Source: Stramonita haemastoma (taxonomy: Eukaryota; Mollusca; Gastropoda; Neogastropoda; Muricidae). Taken from it: a stretch of DNA of 64,000 bases. The notes under the pieces were generated by a model. That model was not told the origin of the DNA. It did not search any database and was given only the letters and a program-made list of their open reading frames with translations. Below are positions 936 through 63,391 of the stretch, one piece after another. Within the stretch, counting starts at the first letter, position 1. Every line of letters begins with the position of its first letter. The DNA lies in the NCBI GenBank assembly GCA_030674155.1, contig CM060318.1, positions 74,526,090-74,590,089 on the forward strand, in the 5' to 3' direction. The position numbers and the translations under genes were made by a program.

Positions 936-1019
936 ATGCAGATTCACACACAGTTCACTGCCAACCCCAAGGGGCATTACAATTCTGACACAAGCTGGGA
1001 CTACAATCAGAAATTATAT
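936..1019 (+). CDS. ADAM17: ADAM17 exon W1 (catalytic domain)
   Basis: 28 codons, phase 0 in and out, bounded by ttacag and gtaagt. It reads MQIHTQFTANPKGHYN..SWDYNQKLY, matching the QI....KHYN...WDVKMLLE stretch of ADAM17 catalytic domains. The initial ATG is internal (a Met within the domain), not a translation start. Confidence 0.85.
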
Positions 1020-2452
1020 GTAAGTGTCAGTCTTCATGGTGGACAGAGAATTTAATATATTGTCCTGAATATCATGTTGAAGAAAATATTAATTAAGGTG
1101 TATGAAAATGTCAGTCTGAGTGTTTGCGTCATCATCTTAATTCCTAAGGTACGGCACTTGTGATGGCTAGTTTAGTTTGTCCTTCTTTCATAAAGGTAGA
1201 CTACACAACTGAATAGTTTGAATTGTAAGAAAAAGTAATAGCATAAAAGTTTTAAAAATTATTTTCAACTTTGTCCAAACTTTAGTCAGCAGATTTTTTT
1301 GCAATGGATGGATGGGTTGGGCGGGGGGGGGTACTAATGAAGGCATTCAACACAATTTTGGGGGTACCTTCAGTTAAGCATTTTATCTAAAAATACTTGT
1401 TTTATTGTCTTGTCACATTTTTTCAAATCTATAACTTTGGTGAATGATGTACGACCATGATAAAATTACGCAAACTTTATTCATGTTAACACTGCAAAAG
1501 TTGAAACCCATGTCCTAAGTGTGTACTCAGTCCATAGCCTAGTAATCTCGGTGTGCTGCTGTGAATGAGAACGGTGCTGTTTTGTTCAGGCCTAGTGTGT
1601 TAAGTCCATGGCCTAGTAGTGTAGGTGTGATGTTGTGCATGACGACGGTGCTGATGTTGTGCGTGATTGACTGTGCTGTTTTTGTCAGGCTAGTGTGTTT
1701 TTAGTCCATGGCCTAGTAGTGTAGGTGTGTGCTGTGCATGACGACAGTGCGGTTTTGTTCAGGCCTAGTGTGTTTAGTGCATAGCCTAGCAGTGTAGGTG
1801 TGCTGTTGTGCATGACGACTGTGCGGTTTTGTTCAGGTCTAATGTGTTTAGTCCATGGCCTAGTAGTGTAGGTGTGCTGTTGTGCATGACAACAGTGCGG
1901 TTTTGTTCAGGCCTAGTGTGTTTAGTGCATAGCCTAGTAGTGTAGGTGTGCTGTTGTGCATGACGACAGTGCGGTTTTGTTCAGGCCTAGTGTGTTTAGT
2001 GCATAGCCTAGTAGTGTAGGTGTGCTGTTGTGCATGACGACTGTGCGGTTTTGTTCAGGCCTTCAGCAGGTCTCGCAACATCAACCGGTTCTGCCTGGCC
2101 CACCTGTTCACCAGCTACCCCTTCAAAGACAACGTGCTGGGATTGGCTTTCATCGCCCCGAAAGTGCTGCTGCCGCTGGGGGCATCTGTTCTATATGTAA
2201 GCTGGGTTTTGTTTGTGTTTTGGTTTGGGTTTTTTTCTGTTGAGTTATAGTTTTTGATTGTGTGACTTGTGTATCATGATGAAGAGTGTTTAGGTGTTAT
2301 GATCACAGTAAAGTGGTTGATTATGATTTTTTTTTTTATGTTAGAGCATTCTCTGATTTAAGTATGTTGTCATTAAACATGTGTTCACACTTTTGCTTGT
2401 ATTCATTTACACATTTCTCACACAAACACACAGAGACTCAGACACACACAGA

Positions 2453-2544
<92 letters not shown>

Positions 2545-3834
2545 TACACTCTCACCACCACACACAAACATACATACACATTGTGCATACATGTACACAC
2601 GATACACAGATAGGATATACTCATGAATGCATGCACATGTACATGTTCATAGTCATATACAAGTACACACACAGACACACGTTGTCTACAGCTCTCTTTC
2701 TCTCTCTCACTTTGTGTTTCCTTTACTGTTGTGCTCTTTCCATCTTGATCTCTTTGTTTCTCTCATACTGGATCAAAATTGATAAACAAAAAAAGAGCAG
2801 GCTGTTTGCTAACACTTTGATGAGAATTTGCATCAGTTAAACATGAATTACAGATACCCTATTTTCAGCTCAGCTTCTTCATAGATCAGTATCTTATTGT
2901 CTTGTTCTGTTATGTCCAGCCTGTCAAAGGTTCTGTGTATTTTGAACAGCCTCTTTCATAGAGGGGGCCCCGGTGTACCCACGCACTGGATGGAGCTCTG
3001 CTAAGAACAGCCGAAAGCAACAAGTGCTGTCCCTCCAGTTTGAGCTGGTCACCACTCACGGTCAGTTCTGCTAGCAGGCTTACATGTTTTGATGATAATA
3101 GTAATAATAATAATATTGATAATGATGATGATGATAAATGGAAGTGATAACAGCGCTATGTTTTGGAGGTCTGAGTCTTTTTTTCTCCTTGCTTGTTTTG
3201 TTCTTACAGGGTGCTGATTTTTCAGATACAGAGATTCACTGCTTCTTATCATCTGGTGTCTTTTTTTTGGGTGCTGATTTCTTTTGGCTGAATTTCAATG
3301 ATTTTTCTTCATTTTCTTCCAGTGGAAAATGAATTTTATGTATGACAAATAGGAATCATGAGTCAGTATGTGCATATGATAGGTTTAAACCATATTCACT
3401 TCTTATTGATTTTTATTTTATCCTTTGTTAAAATCAATGACATGAATCATTCCTTTATAATTGATTTTTATTTAATCATTTTGTTATACTTAATGACACA
3501 GAATTGATTCACTCCTAACTGATTTTTGCTAGCTCCTTTGTTAATCTAATGACATGTGATTCTCTCTGTGTGCATGTCTGGTGCTGTGGACAATACAGAA
3601 CTGGGTAAGTTAACAAAACAGGGCTTGGTAAAACTGCTGTGTGAATACATAGGGAGTGTGTGAATGTGCACACGTACATGTGCGCATGCAAGTGTGTGAG
3701 TGTATTTATGCAAACATTTGCCACATTTGTATATGTAAGTGCAAATCAGAAAAAAGCATCTGAAATACAAGGCTTGCCTCTTTTCATGCCTTAAAATAAA
3801 TAACTCTTGCTCTCTCTTTTTTTCTCTTTCATAT

Positions 3835-3869
<35 letters not shown>

Positions 3870-4360
3870 ACCACACACACACACAACACACACACACCAC
3901 ACACACTCCGCTCCGCTCCACTCCACTCCACTCCACCTTACCCCACCCCACCCTACCCCACCCACACATGCACGCACGCACGCACACACGCACGCCACCA
4001 TCACCACCACTACTTCTACTACCATCACCAACAACAACAATACCAACAAGATGAATCTCACATCATCTTGATCGAAACCTCTCCCTTTATCAGTGACCCC
4101 CAAATTCACCGTGGCTTGTGTACAAATGCACTGCCAGGTCATAACTGGGGAGCAGAGCACGACCCAGACACCGACGAATGTGGGCCCAGTAGTCGAGATG
4201 ACGGCAAATACGTCATGTGGCCGTACGCCGTGCCTGGCTTTGAGGACAACAACAAGGTTGGTGAAACAGTAAATGGTGGTACAGGGATAGAAAGAAAGGG
4301 GTGGATGTTGTGTGGTAAAGTGCGTGCAGTGTGTCTGTTGAGGTGAGGGTGTTGGAGTGT

Positions 4361-4425
<65 letters not shown>

Positions 4426-7400
4426 GGTTGTATGTGCTTGTGTTCATGTAAATTTGTGCAACCTGTGTGTATGCGTAGCTACTATGTATTCATATGTGTA
4501 CATTTTGATCATGGACTTGAGAGAGGGGGAAAGAGAGAGAGAGAGAGTGTGTGTGTGTGTGTGCTGTGCATGGCATGCTGCATACATGTATGTGTGTGCG
4601 TATTTTGTGTGCATTAGTTTTATGCTTATAAATTTCATCTCACTTTTGTCCTCTTCTTCACAAGATTCCAGAGCTATTTTTTCCTGCAAGCCTGTAGTTG
4701 TTTTTTTTTCCCTTTTTTTCTTCATAATGCGGTTGTGTAGTTTGCAGTGTTGGTAACAGTGACATACATGGTGATTTTTGGGAAATGGTGATGGATGGAT
4801 GTTAAATTATCAGAGTGTGTCTTCTGCTGCAGTTCTTCTCTCCCTGTAGCAAGCGGTACATTGCTCCAGTGCTGAGGTCCAAGTCTGCCTTCTGCTTCCG
4901 AGGTAAGCACTGGAGCTGGAGAGTTGTCCTTCTTTCATTCGATGTTGTAGTTTTTTTTTCTAAGTCAGTGTAATCATTTTGTTGTTGTTGTGCTTTGTGT
5001 TTCTTGATGTTTAGAAACCCTCTTTTTAAGTTTTAGAAACCTTTTTTTTCTTCATTGATGAGTTGATCATTAACAGTGTTTTGTTTTGATGATTTTTTTC
5101 TCTCTCATAATTTGATGCACACGTTTGAGCATGGTTGTGCATTGTGCACTGGAAATGAAAGTTGGAATGCTGATAAATAGGGCATCATGTCTGACTTTCA
5201 CAAATGTAGCGTAAGTGAATGAGCGAATGAGTGGCAGAAGCAGTGTTTGCATGTTGGGAATGTTTGGGCCTGACTGTAAAAGACAAGCTGTACACATTGT
5301 GTTAATCGTCTGCAGGTTTTTATACTGTTATGTCAAGAAGTTTGGCTTATGCTGTTTGAAGCTTAGAGCTTAATGATGCTTTCTGCAGTAAAGGTGAAAA
5401 AGGTGAAAAAGTCTTGTCTCTAATGACTTTGGAAAAAACCTCAAAGGCTGAAAGCAAAAGTGACATGGGACTGGGACCTTGCAGTGTGTCAAGACTGCTG
5501 AATTGTTGCATTCTGGCTTTTGGATTGTGCATTTGGGCTTCCTGTAATGGCTTTTAACCCTGAGCTGTCTGCCTTTGCTCTCTCTATAGATGTCCTGTAT
5601 TTTCCTGAAGTACTAAACTGTCTTCAAATCTGAACTTATGGGATAAGTAGGCACTTAACCTTAATTTGAAATGCTTTATAAAATGGTACAGAAAACTGCT
5701 TTTTCCAAATCTGAACTTATGGGACAAAGAGGTACTAAATTAACCTTATTTTGAGATGCTCTATAAATGGTACAGAAAGCTGTTATGTTTGAAATGTAAT
5801 TAAAGTGGTCCTGAAGGGAATTAAAGACAGTTACTGTGTCTTGATTATTATGAAGAATTTTGGGGGGATGAGAAATGAGTATGCTGGTGATTTTGGAGTG
5901 TGAATAAATGAAACTTGCACTTTAAACAGATGACCAAAAATTGATTGCAGTTTCTTTTAAAGATTTTCCAAATTTATGACCAGCAAAATTACTAAGTGAA
6001 ATCCTTACATCATGACCAAGTTTCAAGGCTGTCAGTTTTTAGAAATTTTATTTTATTTTCAACTTGATTTAATTCATTTGACTGCTTTCACAATTTTCTT
6101 TACATGAATCAGACTAAGCTGATTATAATTACATGAGTTACAATTTTAATCAATTTTTGCACAAGTTTGAGCCAACTGATCATTTTTGTTTATGACACCA
6201 AGTGATAATTACCATTTGAACATAATTTGGAATCAAGACTTAGGGTTGTGACAGTGGTACAGGTTGTATGAAATATGCTTCTTTGAACATAATTGAATTT
6301 AATTTCCCAAGTGTGTTCTTCTCAGCAAATCTCTTTCCACAGTATTGGCATTAAGCAGTTGGTTTTGGATTGGTCTGTTCATCTTTTAACATCTTTAACA
6401 TGGGAGATTTTTCTTTCTGCTGAAACCATTTACTTAACCAGTTTTTTAACCCCAAACCAAAGAAAAATGAATGTAACAAGAAGTAAAACACACTCATAAA
6501 AAAGAAGAATGAAAAATGTTGACTCAAGTGAAAGCTTTATTCACTGGAAGTGTAACAGAACATCTGTTTTATTTTTGTACCTTGCCTCTTTTTTGTATGA
6601 TGTTTTTTCTTTAAGAATGGCAATAATCAATTTAATCAAAATGATAAACTTAGACATTTTTTTTTTAATATCTCACCTGTCATATGAAATATATGAATGT
6701 AAATGCCCCAAATCCTGTCTTATCCCTTGGAATTGTATACATGTATGTGGTATGTTGTGTATTTCACAGCTCATTTCAGTCAGTAGAATAGAAGAAGAGT
6801 GTATTTGCTAAAACTTTATCATGAGAAAGGAGCGGTGTATCTAATCAAACATTTGGTCTTATCATTACTCATCCACCATCTGCAGAAATATTGCTGGTTT
6901 GAAAACCTTGCCAGTGTGTCTGTCTATAGATTAGTTCAGCACATTCCAGTAGATTTGTCCAGCACATTCAATAAAGCATCCAAACCAAATTGGAAATATA
7001 TGTATAAAAGATTTTCATGGTATAATTATTTTTGGTCCTTGACTTCCTCTCAGAACAAAAAAAACTATTGAAATATATGTAAAAAACACACACAAACCCA
7101 TTTTGAATATAAGTACATAGGTAGTGAAATGATGACATAACAGCTTTATAGTTAAGCGAAGATTAAAGTAATAAAGCCTAACTGGAAGTATCAGAAGCAA
7201 TATTTTTTTGTTTTTGTTGTTTTTTTCCCCCCACCTTCCTCAGAAAAAAAAGAACTGTCACTGATATGCCATAAAGAGAAGTGCTCATTGCTTTGTAGTG
7301 TTTGCGATATGTTTAAATGATGACACGCAGCAACACAGTTTACCTGTCTGTTATAACTTATTTTTAACCCCTTTGTTGCCATGCCCATTTTATGCTCACT

Positions 7401-10400: not shown

Positions 10401-13400
10401 GTGTGACTGGGTACAGTGGATAGTAGGAAAATTGTAAGGTTGTGTGGAAGTAAGAGAATAGACCCTAGATATATGTCTGTCCTGAGATGGCATAAAAAAA
10501 TTTCAGTATATTTTCAAATGTTGTTTTAAACTGGTTGACCATTTAAAACTTCAAAGGATCACACTTGGTATAGCAGGAATGGTGTTCAGGTTTTCCCTGA
10601 CTCTGTATGTTCTGTTCTCACCTCATTTATTTTTTTCTATGGTTTGTTTAAGCCACAGGTATGTACTGTTTATTTTTCTTCTTTACTGTAGGTTTTATGA
10701 GTGCATTGTGATGCATGTAGTGCCATTTAACTTGCAGGAATAGGCACAGCATAAAAATATAGTTGTCATTATTAAGACAGTGCTGCTTCTGCCTATTAGT
10801 TTTATGAACTGTTTACAAGGTGCTCATATGTATATTTGATTATTTTAGAAACAGATTTTATAGCAAAAACAAAGTTCACCACAGTAGATTTGCAGATGTT
10901 CACATAGAGTATGGATAATAGAAGAAAATATTGCTTCATATGCACCTCTTCCTCGCTCTTTGTTTCTGTTTGTTTCCCTTTTTCTGGGGGTCATATTTAT
11001 GTGTGGGAAAAGGGGTATAGGAAAAGATTGAACCCCCACCTGTTAGTCCTATCCCGGGTGATTGTTACTAAAGCCGTTTGAGATGGGTTTTGTCATTTAA
11101 CGATCACAGGCCCTGCACCTACCTCATTGTTAACCACCTGATGTGCATGTGTTTGATGGCGTTGCCCGTGTTTCTCTTTTTTTTTTCTTTCCAGAGTTTG
11201 TTGTCAAAGTAGATCCTGACAACCAGACTGATTCTGGGTGTAAGTTGTAAAAAGGCATGCTAATCCCACATCACTAGAATGCTGTCTTAGCCATATGTGT
11301 ATACCCTGTCTGCCAAAATCTCTTCTCGTCACGTTTGCCACCCAACTGTCTTACACCCATCTCACACATCAATTGTTCTAAAGAAAGGGCAAGGCAGCTG
11401 ATGTGTATGTTGTGGAAGTAGTTTGAACATAAGTAAAGGGCAAAAAAGTCTAAATCTTTGTGTTTCGTGCATTCTGTTCTGGTATTTTATTTTTCCTGTT
11501 CAATGCAGAATTTTGATCCATTTTTTTCTTCTAGAACCAAATATACAACTAAAGAAATGAGGTTAACGTTCACATGTGTAAATAAAAAAAAAAGTGTACT
11601 TTGAAACAAAAATATATATCATGCATTTTATGTTTAGAGGTTTGCAAAAAGTGTGGTACAACTTTCAACAGGGCCAAGTCCTATTCATTATAGTATAGAT
11701 TTATATAGATGTGCTTGTGTGCATAACCTTTTTTTCCCAGTTGTTTTTTTCCCCTCACTTTCTGCTGTAGTATGGTTTTCAGGTTAGGGGTAAGTAATAA
11801 AATAGGAGAAAAAAACATTTTAAAAAGGTCAGGTGTCGATAGATTTTCAAATTCTTGTGCATTTTGTTAGTATGAATAACAGCCACCTGGAAAATTCTGT
11901 AAGTGTTCATTATAAAGTACGGCTACTATGCCATTTAGTTGGTTTCATAAATATTCCTGTTGCTTAAAGAATGAAGCTTAGTCTTCAGAGTTTTATCAAG
12001 ACTTTTGTTTGTTTGCTGCTACTGGTTATGAAAATTGTTGTCTTCCAAAACAAAATAGAGTGTTATTTCATCCAGTCTTTGACTGATATATCTTTATCTG
12101 AGGAGTTTGGCATTCATGTTGATGCATCATTGTCTCAGCCAGAAGCATGCTCGTTATATTCTTTTTTGTCAAATCGTTGTGTTGATGGCTTGGGTGGCAA
12201 AATTGTCTTGTTCTGTGTGTGGCCTGTAACCAAAGGATGTGGAGGGTGTGCATGCATTATAACCCATACTCAACATCCCTGTGTTCGTGCTGTGTACTGT
12301 GTGCCAGACTGGGGGGGGCTGGGTGGTGGTGGTGGTGGTGGTGATGATATTCGTGGGCACTGATAAAGTGAGGTGGTGGTGGTGGTGATGTTGGTGTTTT
12401 CGTGTATGTTAAGGTGTTGCTTCAAATATCAGCAAGCATGCACTGTTATTAGCGCGCTGTGGCTAGTGGTTAGGTGTGTATCGTAATCTAAAGGTTGCGG
12501 GTTCGATCAGCTATTCGCTATGGCGTTGTGCCTTGGAAAAGGCACTTTACGGCTATTTTTCACCCACCCAGGTGTAAAAGGGTACAACCTTGTGTTGGGG
12601 GTTAATCCTGCGATAGACTGGCGTCCTATCCAGGGGGGAGTCTATGACTCTAGTCGCTTAACGCCACAGAAACGGGATAAGCACCGGCCTGATGAGCTTA
12701 TGGCTCGGGACAGACTTTAACTTAATGCACTGTTATTGGGTTGTTTTATTTTTTGTTGATTTTTGTGGTTTTATTTCTTTAAACAAATTGTATATAATGT
12801 GCTTGTTTTTTTTTCTCATTTTAATTCAGAGTGTGTATTTGTTCCGTAAGAGGTTGGTGAAGCAAGAAGAAGCATTATTTTTTTCTTTAATCAAGAGGGA
12901 GGCAGTGAACAACATGGTTTTGTTTGTTTTTGTATCTGGTTTTGATTTTCAGTTTTTGACATTTTACCTTTTTTTCTTTTTTTATATACCTCTCATATCA
13001 TTAAAAATAAAAGTTGAGGACCCCCCCCCCCCTCCCCGTCCCAAAAAAAAGCATCAAAAACAACCAACAAACTAAGAATTTAAAAAATCTAAGACAAACA
13101 TTGGAAGAACACTTTCAACATGAATTGGGAGGGGAAGGGGGTATAGTCTTGTAGTTGGAGTGTTGACATCCCAGGTTAGAGCCCACCTGTTTAGGGGGAT
13201 TTTCTCTTGGAGTTAAATCAGTACTGTTTCACTCCCCCCAAAAGTCCTTTGGTGACACTGTTTGCAAACATTAAAACCTGTTTCGCCTTTCAGGAGAGTA
13301 GGTTGTTTTGTAGTGGTAGGAACAGATGATGAAATTTTAGAAAATGCATGCACACAGGTGTGGTGTTCGGACATCATCCTAAAAGTCCAATCCAGTCCTG

Positions 13401-17148: not shown

Positions 17149-17471
17149 TGATTTTGTATAGTATACATACAAGCTAGCTTGTGGATTGCAGAATATGATG
17201 AATCATTTTACAGCTTGTTCATTGGATAGCAGAAGTGTGTATGAGGGCCGGTCTCTGTAAAGATGTGTATGAGTTCAGTTCATTTCAGTTGACTGTGTTG
17301 GTATTGCAGCTGAGGAGGACTTCAAGGGCCTGTGTGGCAACGGAATGTGGAGCAGGGGGAGGAGTGTGACATTGGCTTCACAGAGGAGGGGGAGGAGGAT
17401 CTCTGCTGCACCAAGAAGTGTAGGCTGAAGCCTGGGGCTGTCTGCAGGTAGGGGACTGTGTGTGTGTTCTT

Positions 17472-17543
<72 letters not shown>

Positions 17544-17560
17544 TTGTGCGTGTGTGTGTG

Positions 17561-17594
<34 letters not shown>

Positions 17595-20500
17595 GGTGTG
17601 TGTGTGTGTGTGTGTGGTGTGTGTGTGTGTGTGTGTGTTTGTGTGTGTAGTGTGGTATGTGTGTGTGTGTGTGTGTGTGTGTTGGTGTGTATGGTGTTGT
17701 GTGTGTGTGTGTGTGTGTGTGTAGTGTGTTGTGGTGTGTGTGTGGTGCGTGCTGGTGTGTTGTGTTGTGTTTTGTGTGTGTGTGTGTGTGTTGTGTGTGT
17801 TTGGGTGTGTGGTGTGTGTGTGTGTGTGTGGTGTGGGTGTGTGTGTGTGTGTGTGTGTAAATGTTATTAAAATCTGTGTGTTTTTTTTTGTGTGTGAAGA
17901 GTGTGCTGTAATGCATAAAATGTTTTCAAATTATGATGCACTTTTGAGACTTTGTTTGTTGCTTTACAGGATTCAACATTATAAAAGTTCCATGTATCAT
18001 GATGATAATGATAACAGCAACAACAACATAATAATCATCATCATCATTAATATCATCATCATCTCATCACCACCCCCACACCACATCATCAATCATCATC
18101 ATCATCATCATAATATCATCATCACCACCACCACCACCACCTCATCATCATATTCATCATATCCACCATCCCACATCATTATATCATCATCATCACCACA
18201 CACACCACTCATCCACACACCTTATATATCATCATCATCACCCACCACCACATTATCATCACATCATCATCACTGTGACTATTGTTATCATTGACGATGA
18301 TGTCTGTGATGGCAGTGACTTCAACCACGCGTGCTGTCAGGGGTGCCAGGTGGCCAACAACACTGTGGTGTGTGAAGCCAAGAACCCTCTGGCCTGCAAG
18401 GATGAGGCCCTCTGCAAGTATCCTTTGTCTGACTGACGCACTTTGACCCCTGTGCAATGCAAATGCAGTGCAATGCAGTGAAACACACAGCTGTCATTTT
18501 TCTCCACTTTCAGCTCCTCTCAGCTGCTGTCCATCCCAGCCCAGCCGGTGCTTATTGTAGAAGGAAGTGGCCACATGTGGACTTGGTAAACAGGAAGGGG
18601 TGCACTAATTTTAGTACTTGGCCCTGGACCCCTGACTTGAGTTATGCTGGATTTGTGCACTGTGTGCAATGCAGTACAATGCAATGTGATACAACTCACA
18701 GTGCAGTGGAATACAATACAATATAATACAATACAATGCAAAACAAAACATGCAATGCACTACGGTACAAAACAATACAAGACGAAGAATGCAATCCAGT
18801 AAAGTACAGTTTAGTACAATACCATGCAATACAATATAGAAAGTTTGGCTGTTAAAGTACAGAAATAATATATAAAATAAAAAAATAAACGAACTTAAAA
18901 CAAAATCTTCAAGAGAAAATGCCTTAACTGATACTTCAGCGGGATAAGCCTAAACTGCCCAACTCCAGGAAGCTTGATGATCACACAGACTGCCTTGATA
19001 TGTGAGTATTGCATTACTGTTTATATTTTATCTATATTTGATCATATTTGTAGATCATTTTATTTGTAAGGGTTTTTATGATGAGGGTTTCATGATAAAA
19101 TTCAGTGTGCTGCCTTGTGAGGTGAAAAAGCAACCATTGATAAACAACATCGTGTTATAATGGTGAGTGAGAATCAGAACAAAAAATCATTACTTACAGA
19201 GTCTGTTTATTCCGCTTGATAGTATTTTGCGTGAAAATATTCCATTTCATTGCTCTTTAATTATGTTATTTTATCCAATGTCATAACATTTTTTTTGATT
19301 TATAAAATTAAAAAAGTTTATTCCATGTCATGAATTGTTTTATCTTATAGCATTGCATTGGAAGTTTTATTCTAGTTTGTCACTCACTCACTCACTCACT
19401 CAGTCCATGTCCCAAAGGACGTAGGGGGGACATGTAGAAGACGCAACAGAGATCTTTTTCCATGCTTCACGATCCTGTGTGGCTAGTAGGAGGTGTTGCA
19501 GGGGTTGGGCGGTCCAGTCTTTGATGTTGTCAACCATGATTTCTTTTGGCGGCCTCTTCTTCTCTGCCCTCAACTGTTCCTTGCAGATGGTTTTTGCTAG
19601 GTGTGTGTCTTGTGGTGTGACCAAACACATCAGCTTTCTCCTCTTTATGTGAGAGCAAGGCTCTTGGGGCCCACACGCTTTTGATTTTTCTTTCACATAG
19701 TTATTGGTCTTGTGTTCTTTGTATGATATTTTGAGGAGTCTTCTGTGCACTTGTTCTCGAATGCTTGGATTCTCCTCTCTAACTCTGCTGTCAGAGTCCA
19801 TGATTCACAGCCATATAGGAGGATAGATATCACGAGGGATTTGTAAAGGTGGTATTTGTGCAGAAGCACAAGTTTGTAATTGTTTTTAAATGTTACATTT
19901 ATTTAAAAATGTTAAATTGTTTTAGATTGTTTGGAATGTTTCAATGTTTGGTGTTTTTTTTTTCTCCATGTGACTGTATGTGGATTTCAGGGGAAATGTT
20001 ACAATGGTACGTGCATGAACTACTGTGCCCTGCTTGGTATACAGAGAGGGAAGGTGCTGACACCCTGCCTGTGTGTTCAGAATGGTGAGTCCACAGCCTC
20101 TGTTAGTTCTTCCTTTTTTCATTTTCATGTCATATGATTTTATACATATTTTTTCCATAAAGATCTTTAGACTGTTTTTTTTTGTGTGTGTGTCTTTACC
20201 TGACGTGTAATTTTTTGTCTGCAGGAAAGCTTTTGACTTTGATGATGATTTTATAGATTTTTTTAAAAAGATGATTTAATAGTTTCTGTTGTTGTTGTTG
20301 TTGTTTTTTAAGCATTTTAAGTTTTTGAGGTGAAATAGATTTCTTTATTGGATTTTCCGTGCCAGATGAATATTTGTTTATTGTCAGTTGTATTGTTTTT
20401 ATCCTTGATATGTCTTAGTTTATTTCCCTTAATGTATTTTTGCCTGCCAAATAATTTATACTTATTGTAAGCTGTATTTATTTTTCATAAATATATCTGA

Positions 20501-23500
20501 TTCAATTTTTCTGAGTTTTTCTTTTTAATCTTTTTTTATATTCATTTTTATTAATTGGTGGATGTGTTTTGAAAGAAGTAGGTGATTCTTGCAAGTGTGT
20601 GTGATTTGGGGCTAATTCAGAAACTCACCCAAAAACAAAAATGTGAGTATCAATCGGTATCATTTACTGCTTCACATATATTTATTTATTTAGTTATTCT
20701 TTTATATCGAGGATAATGGAATAAGCACTCATGTGCTTTTTTTTTTTTATATGATGACATGATTTGGCCTGGCCACTGTGTGTGTCACTGTTTCTTGTCA
20801 TGTCGTGTCATGTCATGTCATCAGCCACTGCCATGTGTCGGCGATGCTGTGCGGAGGTGGGCCGGGGCAACAGGAAGGGAGAGTGTCTGCCCACCAAGGA
20901 AGTGCAGACTCCTGGCAGAACCTGTCACCTGGGCACCTGCAATGATGTGAGTGTGTGTGTGTGTTAGTTAGTTAGTTAAAGTCTGTCCCGAGCCTAAGGC
21001 TCATCAGGCCGGTGCTTATCCCGGTTTCTGTGGCGTTAAGCAACTGAGAGTCATAGACTCCCCCCTGGATAGGACGCCAGTCTATTGCAGGGTTAACCCC
21101 AACACAAGGTTGGTACCCTTTTTGCACCTGGGTGGGGTGAGAAAATAGCCGTAAAGTGCCTTTTCCAAGGGCACAATGCCATATCCAAAAGCTGGGATTG
21201 AACCCGCAACCTTTGGATTACGAGTCCAACGCCCTAACCTCTAGACTACAGCGGTGGCTTGTGTGTGTGTGTAGTGAGTAGTTTTGTGAAGGAGGAAGAT
21301 GGTGTGATCTTCTGCAGTGATGTAAATGTAACCTTATCTGTGGTGTGCAGCCTGGTCAAGAGATACCCATATTTTCCAGCTTATGAAGTGCATTGCTGTT
21401 AGTCATCACCTGAGTTGTAGAGAAAAAATCCTGAAGGTGCATATGGACTGAGAGTTGTTTAATAACAAAAAAAAATTCAACAATAGGTCATTGAAAAATG
21501 ATCCAGTTGTGAATTGAGTTTAAAAGAAGTGCATTTTTAAATATAAAATACTGTAGTTTTTCTCTTTTAGAATAGGGGATGGCCTAATGGGTAGACCATT
21601 GCACTCGTAATCTGATGGTACAGGATCGAGCCACCATGAAGGTGCCTGCTTTAGGGAATTTTACCCTCAAGTTTTTTTTGTTGTTTTTGTTTTTTTGTTT
21701 TACCCTGGAGTTAACATCAATACTTTTGTTTTACCCTGGAGTTAACATCAATACTGACTCCACCCCCGCAAAAGTCCTTCAGAAGAGACAGTAAACTGAG
21801 GCCCTGTGTGCAAATGCATGCAGAACATCTTGCATGCACATTACAAACCTGTTCTGCTTTTTTAATAAATATCAGAAAAGTACACATAAGAGAAGTATTT
21901 TCTGAGAGGTTTCTTCATTCTCTGAAGACAATGGCAGCACCTTCTTTGACTTGATCAGTCTTGTTTGGAGCAGCATCTGGAGTGGCTTAGCAGACCAATC
22001 CCTGCATGGCAGTGTCTGTCACAGTTCTTGCAGGTAGACAAAACTTGATGCAGGATTGTTGGCCAAGGGATACTCTCTGCCTTTTAAGCAGCTGCTTCTT
22101 TTCAATGTTTGGAGTCTTTTTTTTTTGCTTCTCCCCTGCAGATTCCTCACATATTGATTAACCAAGCTGTGTGTTGTGTTTCAGAATGGGGAGTGTGTCA
22201 AAGTGGAGCAGCAGCTCGCTCATCGTATCTTCAGGTTCATCCAGAGCCTCACTGTCAGCAAGCTAGGTGAGTATGTTGTGATGTCAGTTCCCCAAAGTTG
22301 TAATGTGGCTACCTTAATTCTTTCATTCCCACAGCCCGGTTTACCGGTCTGCAGACTTTTCTTCCTTTCCTTCCCAGCGCCCGGTATACCGGTCTCCACT
22401 AACAAACACCCTTCCTTCCCACAGCCCGGTAAACCGGGCTCAGCAGGGAGCGCTCTGTTCTTCCCGTTAGTTGCTTATCAGTTGTCAGCCACTAACGGGT
22501 CTTTGTTTATGTAAGAAATTCCAGGCTGGGCAGCCTCCCTTCCTCCTCCCCTCCCCCCCCCTCCCTCATTAATCTTGACCTGTCAGCATCTTGCCCCTTC
22601 AGCCACTACCCAGTCTATGTAGTAGTAGCTGTGAATGGAATGCAGTTCCAGCATTGGTCTTCCAGCTCTCACCCCCCCTCTCTACCCCCCCCCCCCCCCC
22701 CCCCCCTACTCGTGAGAAAGTAGTCGCTTGAGAAATTAGTTGGTTTTAGAATGAGTGTAAGAGTGTGTGTGAAGATGTGGCTTATTTCTTGGCTGTGAAA
22801 ATGGAAGGTGGAGAGAATTCGGATTCTGATCAAGGTGTATTATACATGTGTCACCTGTGTGTGACATATCATGTGATACTTGGACAGAAGGGCAGACATA
22901 TGTAATTAGAGAGCATGTAAATACTATCTGTATATAAAAAGTGTGCAAAATAGTGTGGGGCTTGCTCTCTTTATTGGTGTGTGGTAGTCATACACAGTCT
23001 ACAAAAAAGAGAATAAACTGTTGATGTGTTGGGGACAATCATGGTGACAATGGAGACAGTTCTCATGGAGTATTCACATAAACAATGCAAGGGGATGTAC
23101 ATGAGGCATCAGTTGGTGAGTACAAGCACGAAACATACAACTGGCTAGAAAAATACTGATCTGCATGGAGTGCATGATGGCATACCTGGTTTTTTACTGT
23201 CAACTTACCTGTTTTACACCTGTGTCACCTGTCATGTTACTGTGAAGTGTCAACATGGTCACCAACACCATCTCACATCAATTTCCTACACAATGATATA
23301 TGACATTCTTTGGTTCATATAATATGGGCTACTGCCGTAAGTCTGTAAAGTAAGTACCCCATTATGCTAAGTGTTTTGGTCTGTAAATCCGGGAATGAAG
23401 GGAAGAAACAGACAAGAGGAAGCTGGGAATAAAGGGAAGCAATAGCAAGTGTAAATTGGGGAATGAAAGAGTTAAACATGGGGAAAAAACCTGTCGCATA

Positions 23501-23862: not shown

Positions 23863-26800
23863 CATTTCAGTGGAAGTGATGCGGACGAACATTGTGGGCA
23901 CGGTCATCATTCTGTCCCTGCTGATCTGGATCCCTGCCAGCTGGGTGGTTAGCTGTGTGGTCAGTGCCCCTCTCTTTGTCCACGCCTCTCACCCTGTCTC
24001 CTCTCTGTGTCCATACACCTGTCCTTACTTTTGTCCTTACACGTCTGTTTGTCCTTACATGTTTATTTATTTATTTATCCGTACTTTTGTCCTTACATGT
24101 CTGTTTGTCCTTACATGTTTATTCATTTATTTATTACCACTTTATGTCACAGCAGATTTCTCTGCATGAAATTCGGGCTGCTCTCCCCAGGGAGAGTGCG
24201 TTGCCACAAGTGCAGTGCCACCCATTATTTTTTTTCTTTTTCCTGTTTGCAACTGTATTTGTCCTTACATGTCTGTCTGTGCTTACATGTCTGTTTGTCT
24301 TTACATGTCTGTCTGTCTTTACATGTCTGTCTGTCCTTACATGTCTGTCTGTCCTTGCATGTCTGTCTGTCCTTACATGTCTTTCTGTCCTTACATGTCT
24401 GTCTGTCCTTACATGTCTGTCTGTCCTTACATGTCTGTCTGTCCTTGCATGTCTTTCTGTCCTTACATGTCTGTCTGTCCTTACATGTCTGTCTGTCCTT
24501 ACATGTCTGTCTTTACATGTCTGTCTGTGTGTCCTTACATGTCTGTCTTTACATGTCTGTCTGTCCTTGTGTGTTTGCCTTCATACTTATGTCCATTTTT
24601 TCCTGTCTCCCTATCTGCATAATCTTTTACATGTCTTGTCTACTGTTCTTGCACATCTGTCATCCTTTCACCTCTATTTGTTTCTTTCTTCTGTTGCCAG
24701 TTTTTTTCTCTTTTTTAACTTAAAAAAAAAGTATGATTTCATTATTATCTCACCATTGCTGATTGGTGAACGTCAGAGCTCTAGTTGAAAAACAGGAGGG
24801 GGAAGGGGGGGAATATTGATATTTGAAAAATGTTTGCAAATATCTGGCTTTTGTTCTCAGTGTTATAACTATTCCATCTATCATATCCAGGTAAACCATA
24901 ACAAATTTTCATTCTATGTCACTTATCTGGTTGGTAAAAACATGAGCGATTTGAGGTGTAAAAATCATCTTTTTTTTTTTTGTTTCAGGATAAACGGAAA
25001 ATTGTGCAGGAGGAGGATTACCTACAACGATGGATAAGCAGAGAGGTAGGTGTGAGATAGGTGGTTGTTCATGAATGGTGTGTCGGACTGAATGACAGTG
25101 CCAATTACTGTGGGATAGATGATGTCATTTCACATGTGTTATGTGACAATGTGTATAGGCTGAGGATGGAAGAAACAGTTAAAATGACAGTTTAGTTGTG
25201 CATGATGGTGTGCTGATATTTGGTATCATATTGTATTAATATGTTTGTGGGGTGAGGATTTAAGGAGGTGTATCTTAAGATGTTATGCAGTGCAGTGACA
25301 GAAAAAAGGAATAAGTGTATAAGAAGTTTACAAACAAGGACACCCTTTTCCTTACTGTTTTTGTTCTGGTGGCTTAAGTTCCTGGTAGTGCCTGGTAATG
25401 AACTTGACGTTGATTGTGAAATGTAAAAAATGATGAAAGAGGATAGAGATGAATTTGCTGCTGTACATTTGCATGACTTTTAGTGTGTTTGTGTGTGTGT
25501 GGTGTGCGTGCGTGCGTATGTGAGCATGTTTATGAATGTACTTGCATGAATATTCGCAGGAATTAGATCATGACAAGGGGCAGGATAGCTCAGTGGCTAG
25601 TGTTGAGTGTGTGATCTGATGGCCCAGGTTTGAGCCACTACCAAGATGCCTGTTAGAGGGGATTTTCCCCTGGAGTTAACATCAGTACCAACTCCTCTCC
25701 CCTGAAAGTCCTTCGGATGAGACTATGAACCAAGGTCCAGTGTGGGAATGCTCACAGAACATCTGTTGTGCACATAAAAAGCCTGTTCTGCCATCAGAAG
25801 AGTAGGCCATTGCATGCAGATAGGAACAGATGACAAATTGTTTAAAAATGCATAGACTGATGTTGTGCTTCGACATCATACTGAAGTTGGAATGTGGCTA
25901 CCTTAATGGTAGGTAAATGGTTGCATGCACAGAATTTCTCATTAGCAAACCTCAGTAATTTAGCCAAGGAATGGAGAGAAAAAAATCATGACAGTATTTT
26001 TTCCCCAAAATGCGATATATTTACAAGGAACTTCACTATCAATTTAGAAAAAGCAAAACAAAGAAGAATAAGAAAAAAACAACACCCCCCACCCCCCACC
26101 CCCAAGAAGGTGAATTAGTATGCCAAGCAAAAATGAAATCTTAATACCCTTATGTAAAAAAACCAAAACCAAAAACCAAAAGAGACTTGGTTAGTTGAAA
26201 GGTCAGCACAAAGCTAACGCTGTACTCGCAGTCCTTTGGATTTCAGCACTCCATCCTGGGCATGTCCCGCGAGGATCTGTCCAACTTCCGCATCAAGAAC
26301 TCACGCTTCACCCGCCTGCCCCCCTCCCTTGCCCACAGCCAGGGTCACGGCAACAACTTCCACCACAGGTCAGGTGCTGGGGGGCCCCCCAATTTCTATG
26401 GGGAGGATGACATGGAGTCCGCCATTTGATGTTGCTTCCTCTTCAGTTGGGGGGCTGGCTGTCTGCTTCACTCCTGCAGTGTCCTTCTGTTCAGTGCCTG
26501 TGGGGGACTCTTTTCTTTTTCGTGTCTTTTGGTTGTGGTTTTTGAGTTTTGGGGGGCTTTTTTGTTTCTTTCTTTTTTTTTTTTTTGGTTACTTGCAGTT
26601 TTTTTTGTTTGGTTTGAGTATTGTTCAGTCATGGTGTTTGCTGTCACTGACTTGTCATGCATGTTGGGAAGAGTGGGATTACATGTAGGGGCCCTTCCTT
26701 CCTTCCTTCCTTCCCCACCCTCCTCCTCCTCCTCCTGTGTTCTGTCGTATCATATATGTATTTTTGCTTATATGGTATTTTCTGGCAAGGAAGTGATGTA

Positions 26801-27756
26801 GTTGGAAGAGGTGTATTACTGGACGATGGAATGTGATAGTGATGAGGGTTCTGTATTGTTTTGAATGATGAGGGTTGTGTATTGTTTTGAATGATGAGGG
26901 TTGTGTATTGTTTTGAGTGTGAGAGTGACGAGGGTTCTGTATTGTTTTGAGTGTGAGAGTGACGAGGGTTCTGTATTGTTTTGAGTGTGATAGTGACAAG
27001 GGTTCTGTATTGTTTTGAGTGTGATAGTGACGAGGGTTCTGTATTGTCTTCAATGTGATAGTGATGAGGGTTCTTTATTGTTTTGATATTATAAGTACTC
27101 TTCCCTTCTGTACTCTTACCTCTTATATCACCTCTGTTTCCTAACTGTGATGTACACTTGGGCATTTCGTCTTTTTTCCTGTGATGATTTCACTTGAAGT
27201 AGGTGTCTAATAAGTCTTGTAGTTGGGATCCATTGGTCACGAATAGCCATGGATCTCTGCCAAAGCGTCACCTTTAGTTGGCACTCTGGAAGGTTGATCA
27301 CAAATGATTTTTTTTGGGGGGTGGGGGGGAGAATGTTATATGGTTGAGTGAAATGTGATAAGATGGTAGTTGAAGCCAGGGTGCTTAGGAGAGAAAAGCA
27401 CAATATGTAATAACAGAAACATTTAAGAGAAAAATGATGGCAGGTCTAAGCACAAAAGTTTGTGATTGGCTGAGTGTTTTTTTGGGGTTTTTTTACTTTC
27501 TTTGTGTTGGTTCGCTTTGATCTGTGTTACTTCTTTTTCGATTTTTATTGTTGTGATTTTGCCTTAAGAACAAATTTTATTCAGCGAGAAAAGTATGTTA
27601 TGCTCTATACACCACAGTGACTGGGGAAGTGACTACAAAAAACCACACAGTGTGTACAGCTGTGGTGTCTTACTGTGCAGTTGTTACCTGTTTTGTGATT
27701 GATTAGAGGTATTCCTTTTGATAAGGAAAATCTGTGATTTGTCTGCATAAAATATG

Positions 27757-27810
<54 letters not shown>

Positions 27811-30800
27811 TATGCTTAAAAACAGCATAAGTGCCTTAAACGGATGAATTGTCAGGACTACTGTATATATATATTGTAAATCAAAAGCAGTTACGTATTT
27901 GCTAGTCCCCAAAGTTGTATGCTGTTCCCGAGCAGTCATATCGGAGATAATGTGCCTTATACCTACCTACCTACCTACATGATAATCCTCTGAGTCACAG
28001 CAACGTAACTACATGGCGATTCAGTCAAAAGTGCTATAATTGACTGAAGCTTGAAATCATGATACCAAGTACCGATTGAGAAATGGCCCTTCCTCATTCA
28101 TTCACATGACCAGGTGTAAAACTGGCCATTTTTTTCCAGTTCATTGATTTCAATTTTCATTGCCACTGTTGTACTACAATTAATCAACATATGAAATGTA
28201 ATTTGTAACATCTATTTCATTGTACTCTGAGCAAATTGTTAATTTACTATATTTCAACCATGAGAGAATGTAACCAGATTGAGCAAGTATTTGAGCTGTG
28301 CTGGTTTGGCCAGATTGAATACCTTCCCACTAACTGATAATGGGTGAGGTCAGTAGGAAGAAAGGTTTATGTCATGAAGGGAAAAGATAGATTCTTTTCT
28401 GGAGAAATAAGGCAAACTTGGTATCTAGTGGTATACCATCACACCTGTGAACAGCCAAATTTGCAATATTAGCATCCTTCTCCTCTAAGCAGTAGCCTAC
28501 TTTCATATTGATTGGTAGGGGGGGGGGGGGATGCACAGTATGCTGCAGCCATTGGTGGTTTTTCCACAGTATCCTGCAGCCATCATAGTTTCTTTCTGGA
28601 GCATTATGTGATGACTGACACATACCACTAATGAAAATATTGCTTCTTCTGCCCCGGGACAGAAACACTGAGACTATCCTGTTGATTTTGACTAGCACCA
28701 AAAATTGTTTTGCTGAGGTTGTCTGTAATCTTTACAATTTTCTTCATTCTGGACTTTCATTTTTCACTCTTGGATCAGGAGAGAGCTAAAGGGAACTATG
28801 CCACTGTTTTTGTTTCATTAAAAGGAGCTTGAATGCTAACTGCAGGTGATTTCTTTCCAACCCATTAGAATATCAGGACTAAGCACTGTTTAGGATTCTA
28901 AAAGAAAAAAAACCCCACACCAAACAGTTCTGTGTAGTATAGGTTGTGGAGAGGTTAAAACGTGTAGAAGAGGGGGTGGGGTGTTGTTTATTTGTGTGAC
29001 AGATTCAGGATTTGATAATAGAATTGGATACTGTTGCTTTGGGTGCCTGTGTCATGAACATTTGTGTACATTTTTTTTGCTATTTAATGGGCTGCTCATT
29101 ATTTCTTTTTTTTTTTTTTTTCCATTGCTTTTGTATTCCTTTTTGTTCTTATTTTCCTTTGTTGATGTGCTGAATGCATGCGTGGAATGCCTGCCTTGGG
29201 TTTGTGTACTGTTTGCTTTACGAGTCCCTTCTTTTGGTTTGCTGGATGTGTGTAGTAGACAAGTGACAATCTTTTCCAAGATTTGTGACACGTGTCTGCA
29301 AGTTTTCTGTCTGCAAGATTGTTGTGTACCATCCAGTGGCAATGAAGATGTATGCGTGTGTGTGATGCTTTGGAAGAGCATTATGTTCACTGTTCATTGA
29401 CCAGAGAGGTGAGGATAGCACTGCCAGTTCCAGCATTTGGTTTTTGTTTCCATTTTGTTTAAGTCATATTTGAGTAATTGTCCATCTACATGGTTATTTC
29501 GTACATTTGTGTCAAATGTCATGTGTTTTCTTTTTGCTTTGATGTCTGTTAAGCTGGTGTTACTTTATACTGGATGTATTTGATTTATGGACAGGTTTCA
29601 CTTCATTCTCGTCTTCATTACGTCTCATATAAAACCATTAATGGCAGCTTATTCCATAGGGAAAGGTTTTCTCTAAGAAATTCCAGTCTTCTGTACTTAA
29701 TTGATGCTGTAAACATCTCTTGTATCTACTGTTACCTAATTGATGTTTTAAACTTCTCTTGTATCTGTTACCTAAATGATGTTTTAAACATCTCTTGTAT
29801 TCTTACTAAGTGTTAACATCTCTTACTAAATGATGTTTTAAACATCTCTTGTATCTGTTACCTAAATGATGTTTTAAACATCTCTTGTATCTACTGTAAC
29901 TAAACAAATTACACCTCAAGGATAACCCCCCCCCCCCCCCCTTAACATTTGTAAGAAATGAGGGTAGAGGGAAATCTTTCTCAAGTACATTTTTTTTTTC
30001 AAAATATTCTGAGTGGTGTGGCAGTTCTACAAAAAGATGCCAATGAAAAAAAAAGTCCTGCACGTGTCAAAGACTATGCCAAAAACAGAACTGTCCGTAC
30101 TGATGTTTGCCAATGGAAAAGCTCAATGTCAGGCAAAAAAAAAAAAAAAAATTATCTTGCCAAAAATATTGCTGAATTTACAATTGCTTACTGGTGGTGT
30201 AGTTCATATCAAATATTTCACTTCTTGTGGTGCCACTTTAGGAAAACTGAAAGATTAAAGTGTTAGAGGGCGTTTGATTTTAAACCATATGACTTTCTAC
30301 CTGTCAGTAGTTCTGAGTACTCTTTTCCTTTGCCAGTGAAAAAACTGTTTGACTCAGGAAAAAAGCAACTCTCAAGCTTTCTGTTGCTAGGTTTGATTCT
30401 ATGTATGTTTGCCTTTTAAATAAATGTAAATCTAGAAAATATCTGTACATGTTGTGAAAGTATTAGTGCCCATGAAATAGTTGTGTGTTGAATTTGTAAA
30501 CGTTTAATTTTATAGGTACTTTTCTGTGGAATAGCTGTTACTTTGTAAAGCCTTTCTGTAGAATCTGTATGGTTTTTTGGACAGTGAAACATGCTGTATA
30601 GTTGATTTACAACATTTTTTTTTTCAGTTTTCATATGTAATAGACCAGTCAAAATTTGATGTTTCAGAAGCTGTGTTGATATAACACTTGTCAGAATTTG
30701 TAAAGTGATTAGAAGGAAATGAAGGGAAGTCAGAATTCGATGACAAAATCATATGCCTCAAATGTATGATGTAACAAGAGGAAATGATAAGCATTGATTA

Positions 30801-30893
30801 AAAAATAGGATGTAAAAATATCAGTGGTCAGAACAGACAATTAGCAATGACATGCAGTGGGGTTGGTTCTCTTGAGGAATCATTTCCAAGGTG

Positions 30894-30924
<31 letters not shown>

Positions 30925-49130: not shown

Positions 49131-49831
49131 AAAACCTATGCAACACTGACAGATTTTCCACTGCATAACTCATACTATTAAGTTATTATTTTTCCTCACT
49201 TCCAGTTGTGCTAAGTCAGTCTTCATTATTCTTTCTTTCTCTTCCTTTACTGATATAAAAAAAAAATGCCCAAGATTAACAGAGAAATGACTGGGTAGGG
49301 GTAGCAAGTGAGCCACCAAAACCTACCCCTTCCCCCCACTTCTGATCACAAAACCAAGACTTCAAGGTCCATCCACCCTCATGCTCTCCTCCTCACAACT
49401 TTACTGTGAGCACGTCTGACTCTCCAAACCTTGCAACAGTTCACAACTGTACAACCATGTAGATCTACACCAGACGATTTTAACACATGGGAGGGTGTAG
49501 TGATCCAAATAAGCCAAAACAAAAGGTTTCCCTGATTCTGCTGTTGTACAGACCCAGACTGAGATGATGTTGTGCTGAAAAGATGAAGAAAAAAAAAAGC
49601 ATTCATAAAAGGATAGGTCTTGTTTGTGTGTGTGTGCTGTAAACTCCACAAGTTTACCTTCTAGACAGGAAAGAAAGACCCACACAAGGGGCTGGGGAGA
49701 CTTGCAGGAGAGGAAGTCTTGAGCAAATCACAGTATTCTCACAGCTTCGGGTGGTATCCACATCACTTTTCTCTTCTCCTCCTTGGTCCAAAGGTGCACG
49801 CACGTTCCTCAGTGTTTCGGGGCTCAACTCT

Positions 49832-63391
<13,560 letters not shown>

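Follow-up and report, generated by a model that had tools for sequence, protein, structure and literature searches.

A candidate six-nucleotide microexon for the catalytic glutamate of ADAM17 in the gastropod Stramonita haemastoma

The ADAM17 Locus

The stretch of DNA analyzed here, hereafter the window, covers 64,000 nucleotides of the genome of the muricid gastropod Stramonita haemastoma (C3:74526090-74590089) and carries on its plus strand a gene for the metalloprotease ADAM17. An earlier note, made from the letters of the sequence, had given the gene this identity, and rightly so: with query sequences that read across one frame break, the best PDB matches of the catalytic exons place human ADAM17 (1bkc, E 1.4e-34) ahead of ADAM10 (E 1.7e-17), and five Pfam reprolysin families are matched by the exons of the catalytic domain. 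Many of the best relatives found by protein search likewise carry the names ADAM17 or ADAM 17-like. The exon map was obtained by tblastn with two relatives, P0001 (Nucella lapillus) and P0002 (a transcript-like entry), whose residues from about 271 to the C-terminus are matched exon by exon in the window, including the disintegrin, membrane-proximal, transmembrane and cytoplasmic parts. Prodomain residues 13-68 of these relatives are matched upstream of the window, and exons for approximately residues 63-270 were not found in 9.9 kb of upstream sequence, 5,000 bases of which are N. The features are as follows.

936..1019, plus strand: exon W1 of the metalloprotease domain, MQIHTQF...NQKLY (tblastn of P0001/P0002; AG/GT borders)
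2059..2196, plus strand: exon W2, AFSRSRNINRFCLAHLF...GGICSI, with a frame break relative to the relatives (sequence, tblastn)
2950..3060, plus strand: exon W3, ending in LVTTH and the first base of the Glu codon (sequence, tblastn)
3061..3598, plus strand: intron 5' of the candidate microexon, GTCAGT ... CAATACAG (sequence)
3599..3604, plus strand: candidate 6-nt microexon AACTGG (sequence, phase, AG-N6-GT scan, paralog copy, protein gaps)
3605..4137, plus strand: intron 3' of the candidate microexon, GTAAGT ... CTGCCAG (sequence)
4138..4256, plus strand: exon W5, 40 residues, 39/40 identical to P0001 and to P0002 (tblastn)
4833..4902, plus strand: exon W6, FFSPCSKRYIAPVLRSKSAFCFR (sequence, tblastn)
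11195..11239, plus strand: 45-nt exon EFVVKVDPDNQTDSG (tblastn match to P0003; borders by reading)
17309..20083, plus strand: disintegrin/cysteine-rich exons, outer limits approximate (tblastn)
20821..22266, plus strand: membrane-proximal exons ATAMCRRCC... and NGECVKVEQQLAHRIF..., limits approximate (tblastn; end by reading)
23871..23959, plus strand: transmembrane exon, 30/30 residues identical to P0001 and P0002 (tblastn)
24989..31282, plus strand: cytoplasmic exons with two alternative ends (tblastn; stops by reading)

The start of W3 at 2950 (CAG/CCTCTTTCATAGAG) is shown by the protein of a relative, which reads SSHIEGAPVYPRTG. A start at 2964, with which W2 would stay in one frame, was rejected because the relatives read SSHIEG before GAPVYPRTG, and one at 2962 is excluded by the relatives' proteins, which place the start at 2950. 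Further downstream, the disintegrin/cysteine-rich matches in tblastn fall at 17309-17445, 18314-18418, 18932-19002 and 19988-20083. The frame-preserving 45-nt exon occurs in the Babylonia protein P0003 but in neither P0001 nor P0002, and is probably a cassette exon between the protease and disintegrin parts. Of the two cytoplasmic ends, one (26247-26429, stop 26427-26429) matches the tail of P0002 and the other (30962-31282, stop 31280-31282) that of P0001; alternative last exons of ADAM17 thus seem to be conserved among related snails. Two database models follow courses of their own near the catalytic exons, that of P0003 starting at W5 with an unrelated leader and that of P0006 (Littorina) joining W2 to W5.

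Elsewhere in the window, the minus strand carries exon-like stretches at 61491-62024 and 49654-50288, which we take, as a guess, to be DIP2; the former matches AMP-binding weakly, under the Pfam family cut-off, and other minus-strand matches are weaker still. The segment at 20970-21260 is repeat-like and by eye resembles approximately 12450-12720 on the opposite strand; it is perhaps a SINE.

The Hexamer and Its Splice Borders

The active site of ADAM proteases follows the motif HExxHxxGxxHD, and in metzincins generally the glutamate activates water while the leucine preserves the helical register between the histidines that bind zinc. In the window, the codons for this motif are interrupted. 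Exon W3 ends in CACCACTCACG (ACC ACT CAC G) at 3060 and is followed by GTCAGT, and exon W5 begins with GTCATAACTGG (GT CAT AAC TGG GGA) at 4138 after CTGCCAG, such that these two ADAM17 exon ends bound an intron of 1077 nt. Joined directly in silico, W3 and W5 give HGHNW, with no Glu-Leu. Within the intron, at 3599-3604, lies the hexamer AACTGG, with TACAG on its 5' side (the flank ends CAATACAG) and GTAAGT on its 3' side; it consists of the rest of the Glu codon GAA, the Leu codon CTG and the first base of a Gly codon. When W3, AACTGG and W5 are spliced in silico, and only when the hexamer is included, a complete HExxH zinc motif results, and the full motif HExxHxxGxxHD is present with the hexamer and absent without it. 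Phase 1 on either side makes its omission frame-neutral. With a length within 30 nt and divisible by three and with canonical AG/GT borders (CAG/AACTGG/GTAAGT), the hexamer has the properties of a microexon.

A scan of the 1077-nt intron for 6-nt exons returned four AG-N6-GT sites, among which only that at 3599 restores HExxH; the other three hexamers yield no Glu and were excluded. Among 20,000 introns simulated under a first-order Markov model trained on the window intron, 165 held any AG-6-GT site restoring E-[L/F/I/V/M], and only 2 of the 20,000 held such a site together with a GTRAG donor. The earlier note had proposed this motif-restoring hexamer at exactly these positions and had estimated its chance occurrence at about 1 in 100,000 per position. 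Sequence, phase, in-silico splicing and the uniqueness of the site among the AG-N6-GT candidates bear out the proposal, and the estimate is about right, the Markov simulation giving approximately 8e-6 per position. It could still be argued on principle that E and L are encoded elsewhere, by a second intronic exon or, through an alternative splice site, by W3 or W5 themselves. No such segment was found in the window, where the intron was scanned for exons of 6 nt; the borders of W3 and W5 inspected by eye hold no E-L codons at alternative positions, and the site at 3599 is the one HExxH-restoring candidate of the four; we consider this alternative barely credible.

The most economical reading is that AACTGG is a genuine coding exon of ADAM17, though a very short one, and on the combined DNA and protein comparisons we hold this to be very likely; its splicing in S. 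haemastoma is inferred. The spliceosome would pick out the hexamer by its ideal GTAAGT donor and a normal acceptor and join it between W3 and W5, finishing the Glu codon (G/AA), adding Leu (CTG) and beginning the Gly codon (G/GT), such that the mRNA would encode a full zinc site. Skipping would instead give H-G-H and remove the general base, and the enzyme would therefore need the microexon. As the introns are in phase 1 and skipping keeps the frame, gene predictors that miss the exon would output full-length but dead-looking HGHNW models.

Paralogous Copies in the Same Genome

A genome search revealed further ADAM17 copies elsewhere in the same assembly. Among them is a tandem pair on C1, in which an exon begins at the matching codon position (G/HNW) and in both members of which the string AG/AACTGG/GTAAGT occurs approximately 1.3 kb upstream of that exon, the hexamer starting at C1:98803747 in one copy and at C1:98914702 in the other. 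The two copies are approximately 93-97% identical to one another over the long pieces of 4 kb compared, and are therefore counted as one event. Around the matching exon, the pair shares approximately 56-60% protein identity with P0002 and P0011. In these divergent paralogs the hexamer and its splice sites recur unchanged. Comparison of the window intron with as much of the C1 intron as is readable returned, besides the next exon, one weak 55-base match (E 0.006), all remaining listed matches having E values of at least 0.29. After simple words were dropped, AGAACTGGGTAAGT was the single word of at least 12 bases shared between the two, and such sharing is expected by chance 9.7e-6 times. The conserved island of the two introns is the hexamer with its splice sites.

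Searches by tblastn and regular expressions, in stretches that are partly N, recovered no W3-equivalent exon for the C1 paralogs, and splicing in these paralogs was judged from the side of the downstream exon. One of the C1 copies also holds, further upstream, a second site that would restore E-L, AG/AGCTTG/GTACTC. This site has a poor donor and was set aside as the exon, AACTGG being common to both C1 copies and the window. In a third paralog, on C3, the corresponding exon likewise begins at the G/HNW border; no candidate hexamer was found in 263 readable bases, a small part of its intron. The genome additionally contains a locus (L029, C10:54322000-54331999) with long ADAM-like reading frames in which HELGHCFGSTHD and HELGHSFGSSHD lie in one piece, apparently intronless there; this is perhaps a different, retrogene-like ADAM group.

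In the window gene, frame breaks with respect to its relatives occur in three exons, namely W2 (2059-2196) and the disintegrin-region exons 17309-17445 and 18932-19002. Together with the exons for approximately residues 63-270 that were not found upstream, in a stretch that is half N, these breaks leave room for a decaying gene, and for the view that this is a pseudogene or a truly dead ADAM17 whose hexamer arose by chance. Such a history would be difficult to reconcile with the later protein parts matched in the window down to both cytoplasmic ends, with the identity to relatives across the transmembrane exon and nearly all of W5, and with the presence of the identical hexamer and identical splice sites in paralogs. 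Because later exons and conserved residues persist, we regard a pseudogene as very improbable. The frame breaks themselves look like small indels of the kind that long-read assembly would introduce and are probably assembly errors, since the neighboring residues are conserved and the splice sites are kept.

A Two-Residue Gap in Database Proteins

If the exon is as easily overlooked as its length implies, proteins predicted from genomes should lack its residues. The earlier note had forecast as much, anticipating that annotation would miss the exon and report a dead protease, and this fits what is found in the databases: of 210 proteins fetched, 14 are without precisely these two residues. The query carrying the included form returned 1041 proteins, and in 9 of the best 120 listed exactly E-L/F is lacking (H-GHN): two from Nucella and one each from Littorina saxatilis, Haliotis cracherodii, Lymnaea stagnalis, Ostrea edulis, Physella acuta, Aplysia californica and Nymphon striatum. 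Two further searches were seeded on purpose with gapped regions and so enrich for the gap. From 10 candidates, the Haliotis region yielded 4 proteins, three of which have the gap, and the Nymphon region yielded 247 proteins, 120 of them listed. These searches added Biomphalaria, Rhipicephalus microplus, Haemaphysalis longicornis, Ixodes scapularis and Argiope bruennichi. With the gap-seeded searches included, the 210 proteins thus comprise 14 that are gapped (9/120 in the first set and 5/90 in the next), 192 with HExGH and 4 with neither.

The distribution of the gap is uneven. With entries grouped by name and contig, and with taxonomy taken from general knowledge, it is found in 9 of 33 molluscan and 5 of 16 chelicerate entries and in none of 114 others (among which P0206, an ncbi entry on a 9.2-kb contig, was placed). 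The HExGH form carried by 20 of the 33 molluscan entries is compatible with either a microexon or a fused exon. Contigs no longer than 7.1 kb were taken to represent spliced transcripts, and none of the 47 transcript-like entries on them is gapped; 10 of them are nearest to molluscs (n=7, the ORF filling 85-94% of the contig) or chelicerates (n=3, 45-89%). Conversely, for 13 of the 14 gapped entries the contig is at least 276 kb long; the fourteenth, from Biomphalaria, has no listed contig. The closest transcript-like relative of the window gene, P0002 (85% identical), reads THELGHNW, its ORF occupying 88% of a 2.6-kb contig. On these sequence comparisons, skipping of the two residues is very probably the work of annotation and not of the animal, and the exon would be included constitutively. 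The divergent paralog copies and the transcript-like relatives with HExGH together lend support to the microexon reading first advanced for this DNA.

A skeptic might attribute the gaps in other species to independent slips of annotation with no shared microexon behind them, given that small exons are often mispredicted and that the P0003 and P0006 models break in other ways at the same exon border. Yet all 14 gaps remove the identical two residues at the identical place, always leaving H-G-H. Moreover, when 206 of the 210 proteins were aligned (four had no anchor or too little sequence before it), the E-L/F gap was the sole recurrent gap within the zinc motif; other recurrent gaps fall in variable stretches outside the motif, and transcript-like entries are among those that show the commonest of these. 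Independent slips are accordingly quite improbable, and a missed microexon with a single origin would account for the pattern.

A second view accepts the microexon as real and proposes that it is alternatively spliced, such that skipping yields a full-length but catalytically dead ADAM17. The symmetric phase 1-1 introns and a length divisible by three would permit this, and several gapped entries are named as one of several isoforms (Aplysia X2, Biomphalaria X2, Ixodes X4). Against it stand the complete lack of skipping among the 47 transcript-like entries, which include 10 that are closest to molluscs or chelicerates, and the strong GTAAGT donor, which favors inclusion. The location of 13 of the 14 gapped entries on large genomic contigs also has a simpler cause in a missed microexon. 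We therefore judge regulated skipping unlikely, and it is similarly doubtful that a splicing factor sets the fraction of active sheddase in this manner. In its most speculative form, in which we place little confidence, the 6-nt microexon would be an on/off switch of ADAM17 inherited from the protostome ancestor, the dead form perhaps competing with the active one and lineages having either kept the switch or fused the exon.

Age and Origin of the Microexon

Returning to the microexon as a constant part of the enzyme, the DNA of the C1 copies supports an age greater than the split between these and the window gene, and hence than at least one gastropod duplication. Across species the comparison covered proteins, and a wider age is suggested by the gaps in them. 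Because the gap is common to a bivalve, gastropods of three major groups and chelicerates (tick, spider and sea-spider), it suggests that ancestral protostomes had the microexon and that lineages with a fused exon lost it. Among the matches listed, the gap was not seen in insects or crustaceans, and the protein data suggest that the exon is fused in both.

Relation to Known Systems

Microexons of this length have precedents. Exons of 6 nt are described in Drosophila invected and chicken cardiac troponin T, that of troponin T being termed constitutive (PMC7392893, PMC4674806). The snail exon resembles these in being a coding exon of exactly 6 nt, and differs in that its residues belong to the catalytic zinc motif of a protease that should fail without them. 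In plants, microexons of at most 15 nt are conserved and often absent from reference annotation, resulting in wrong proteins (PMC8831610). The likeness to the present case is threefold (ultra-short, conserved and missed by annotation), whereas the plant cases were found from RNA-seq and the snail exon belongs to an animal gene and was found from DNA and protein gaps. The zinc-binding domain of mouse ADAM17 is reported to be encoded by one exon, exon 11 (PMC6404580); the snail motif is instead split into three pieces by two introns. Finally, gapped database entries resemble the ADAM pseudopeptidases, but these are described as having residue substitutions (PMC11266112), whereas the loss of the snail type is probably an annotation gap.

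The open-licence literature, which leaves most subscription papers and preprints outside, yielded no earlier description of a 6-nt exon in ADAM17. To our knowledge, no 6-nt microexon encoding an enzyme's catalytic residue has been recognized. Among conserved microexons of ultra-short length, that of the snail would stand out by the catalytic residue that it encodes and by the apparent breadth with which it is overlooked.

Implications

Should the pattern prove general, a good part of the molluscan and chelicerate ADAM17 entries would be falsely recorded as inactive, and such records would mislead work on shedding, immunity and pseudoproteases in these animals. Public databases list ADAM17 enzymes that look dead and are probably active. 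The recurrent two-residue gap could serve as a simple signature by which other missed microexons may be sought in protein databases. The split of the HExxH codons by two introns likewise offers a clean test case for the recognition of ultra-short exons. For ADAM17 itself, these codons appear to have been cut by two introns and kept so through an old duplication, perhaps since the protostome ancestor.
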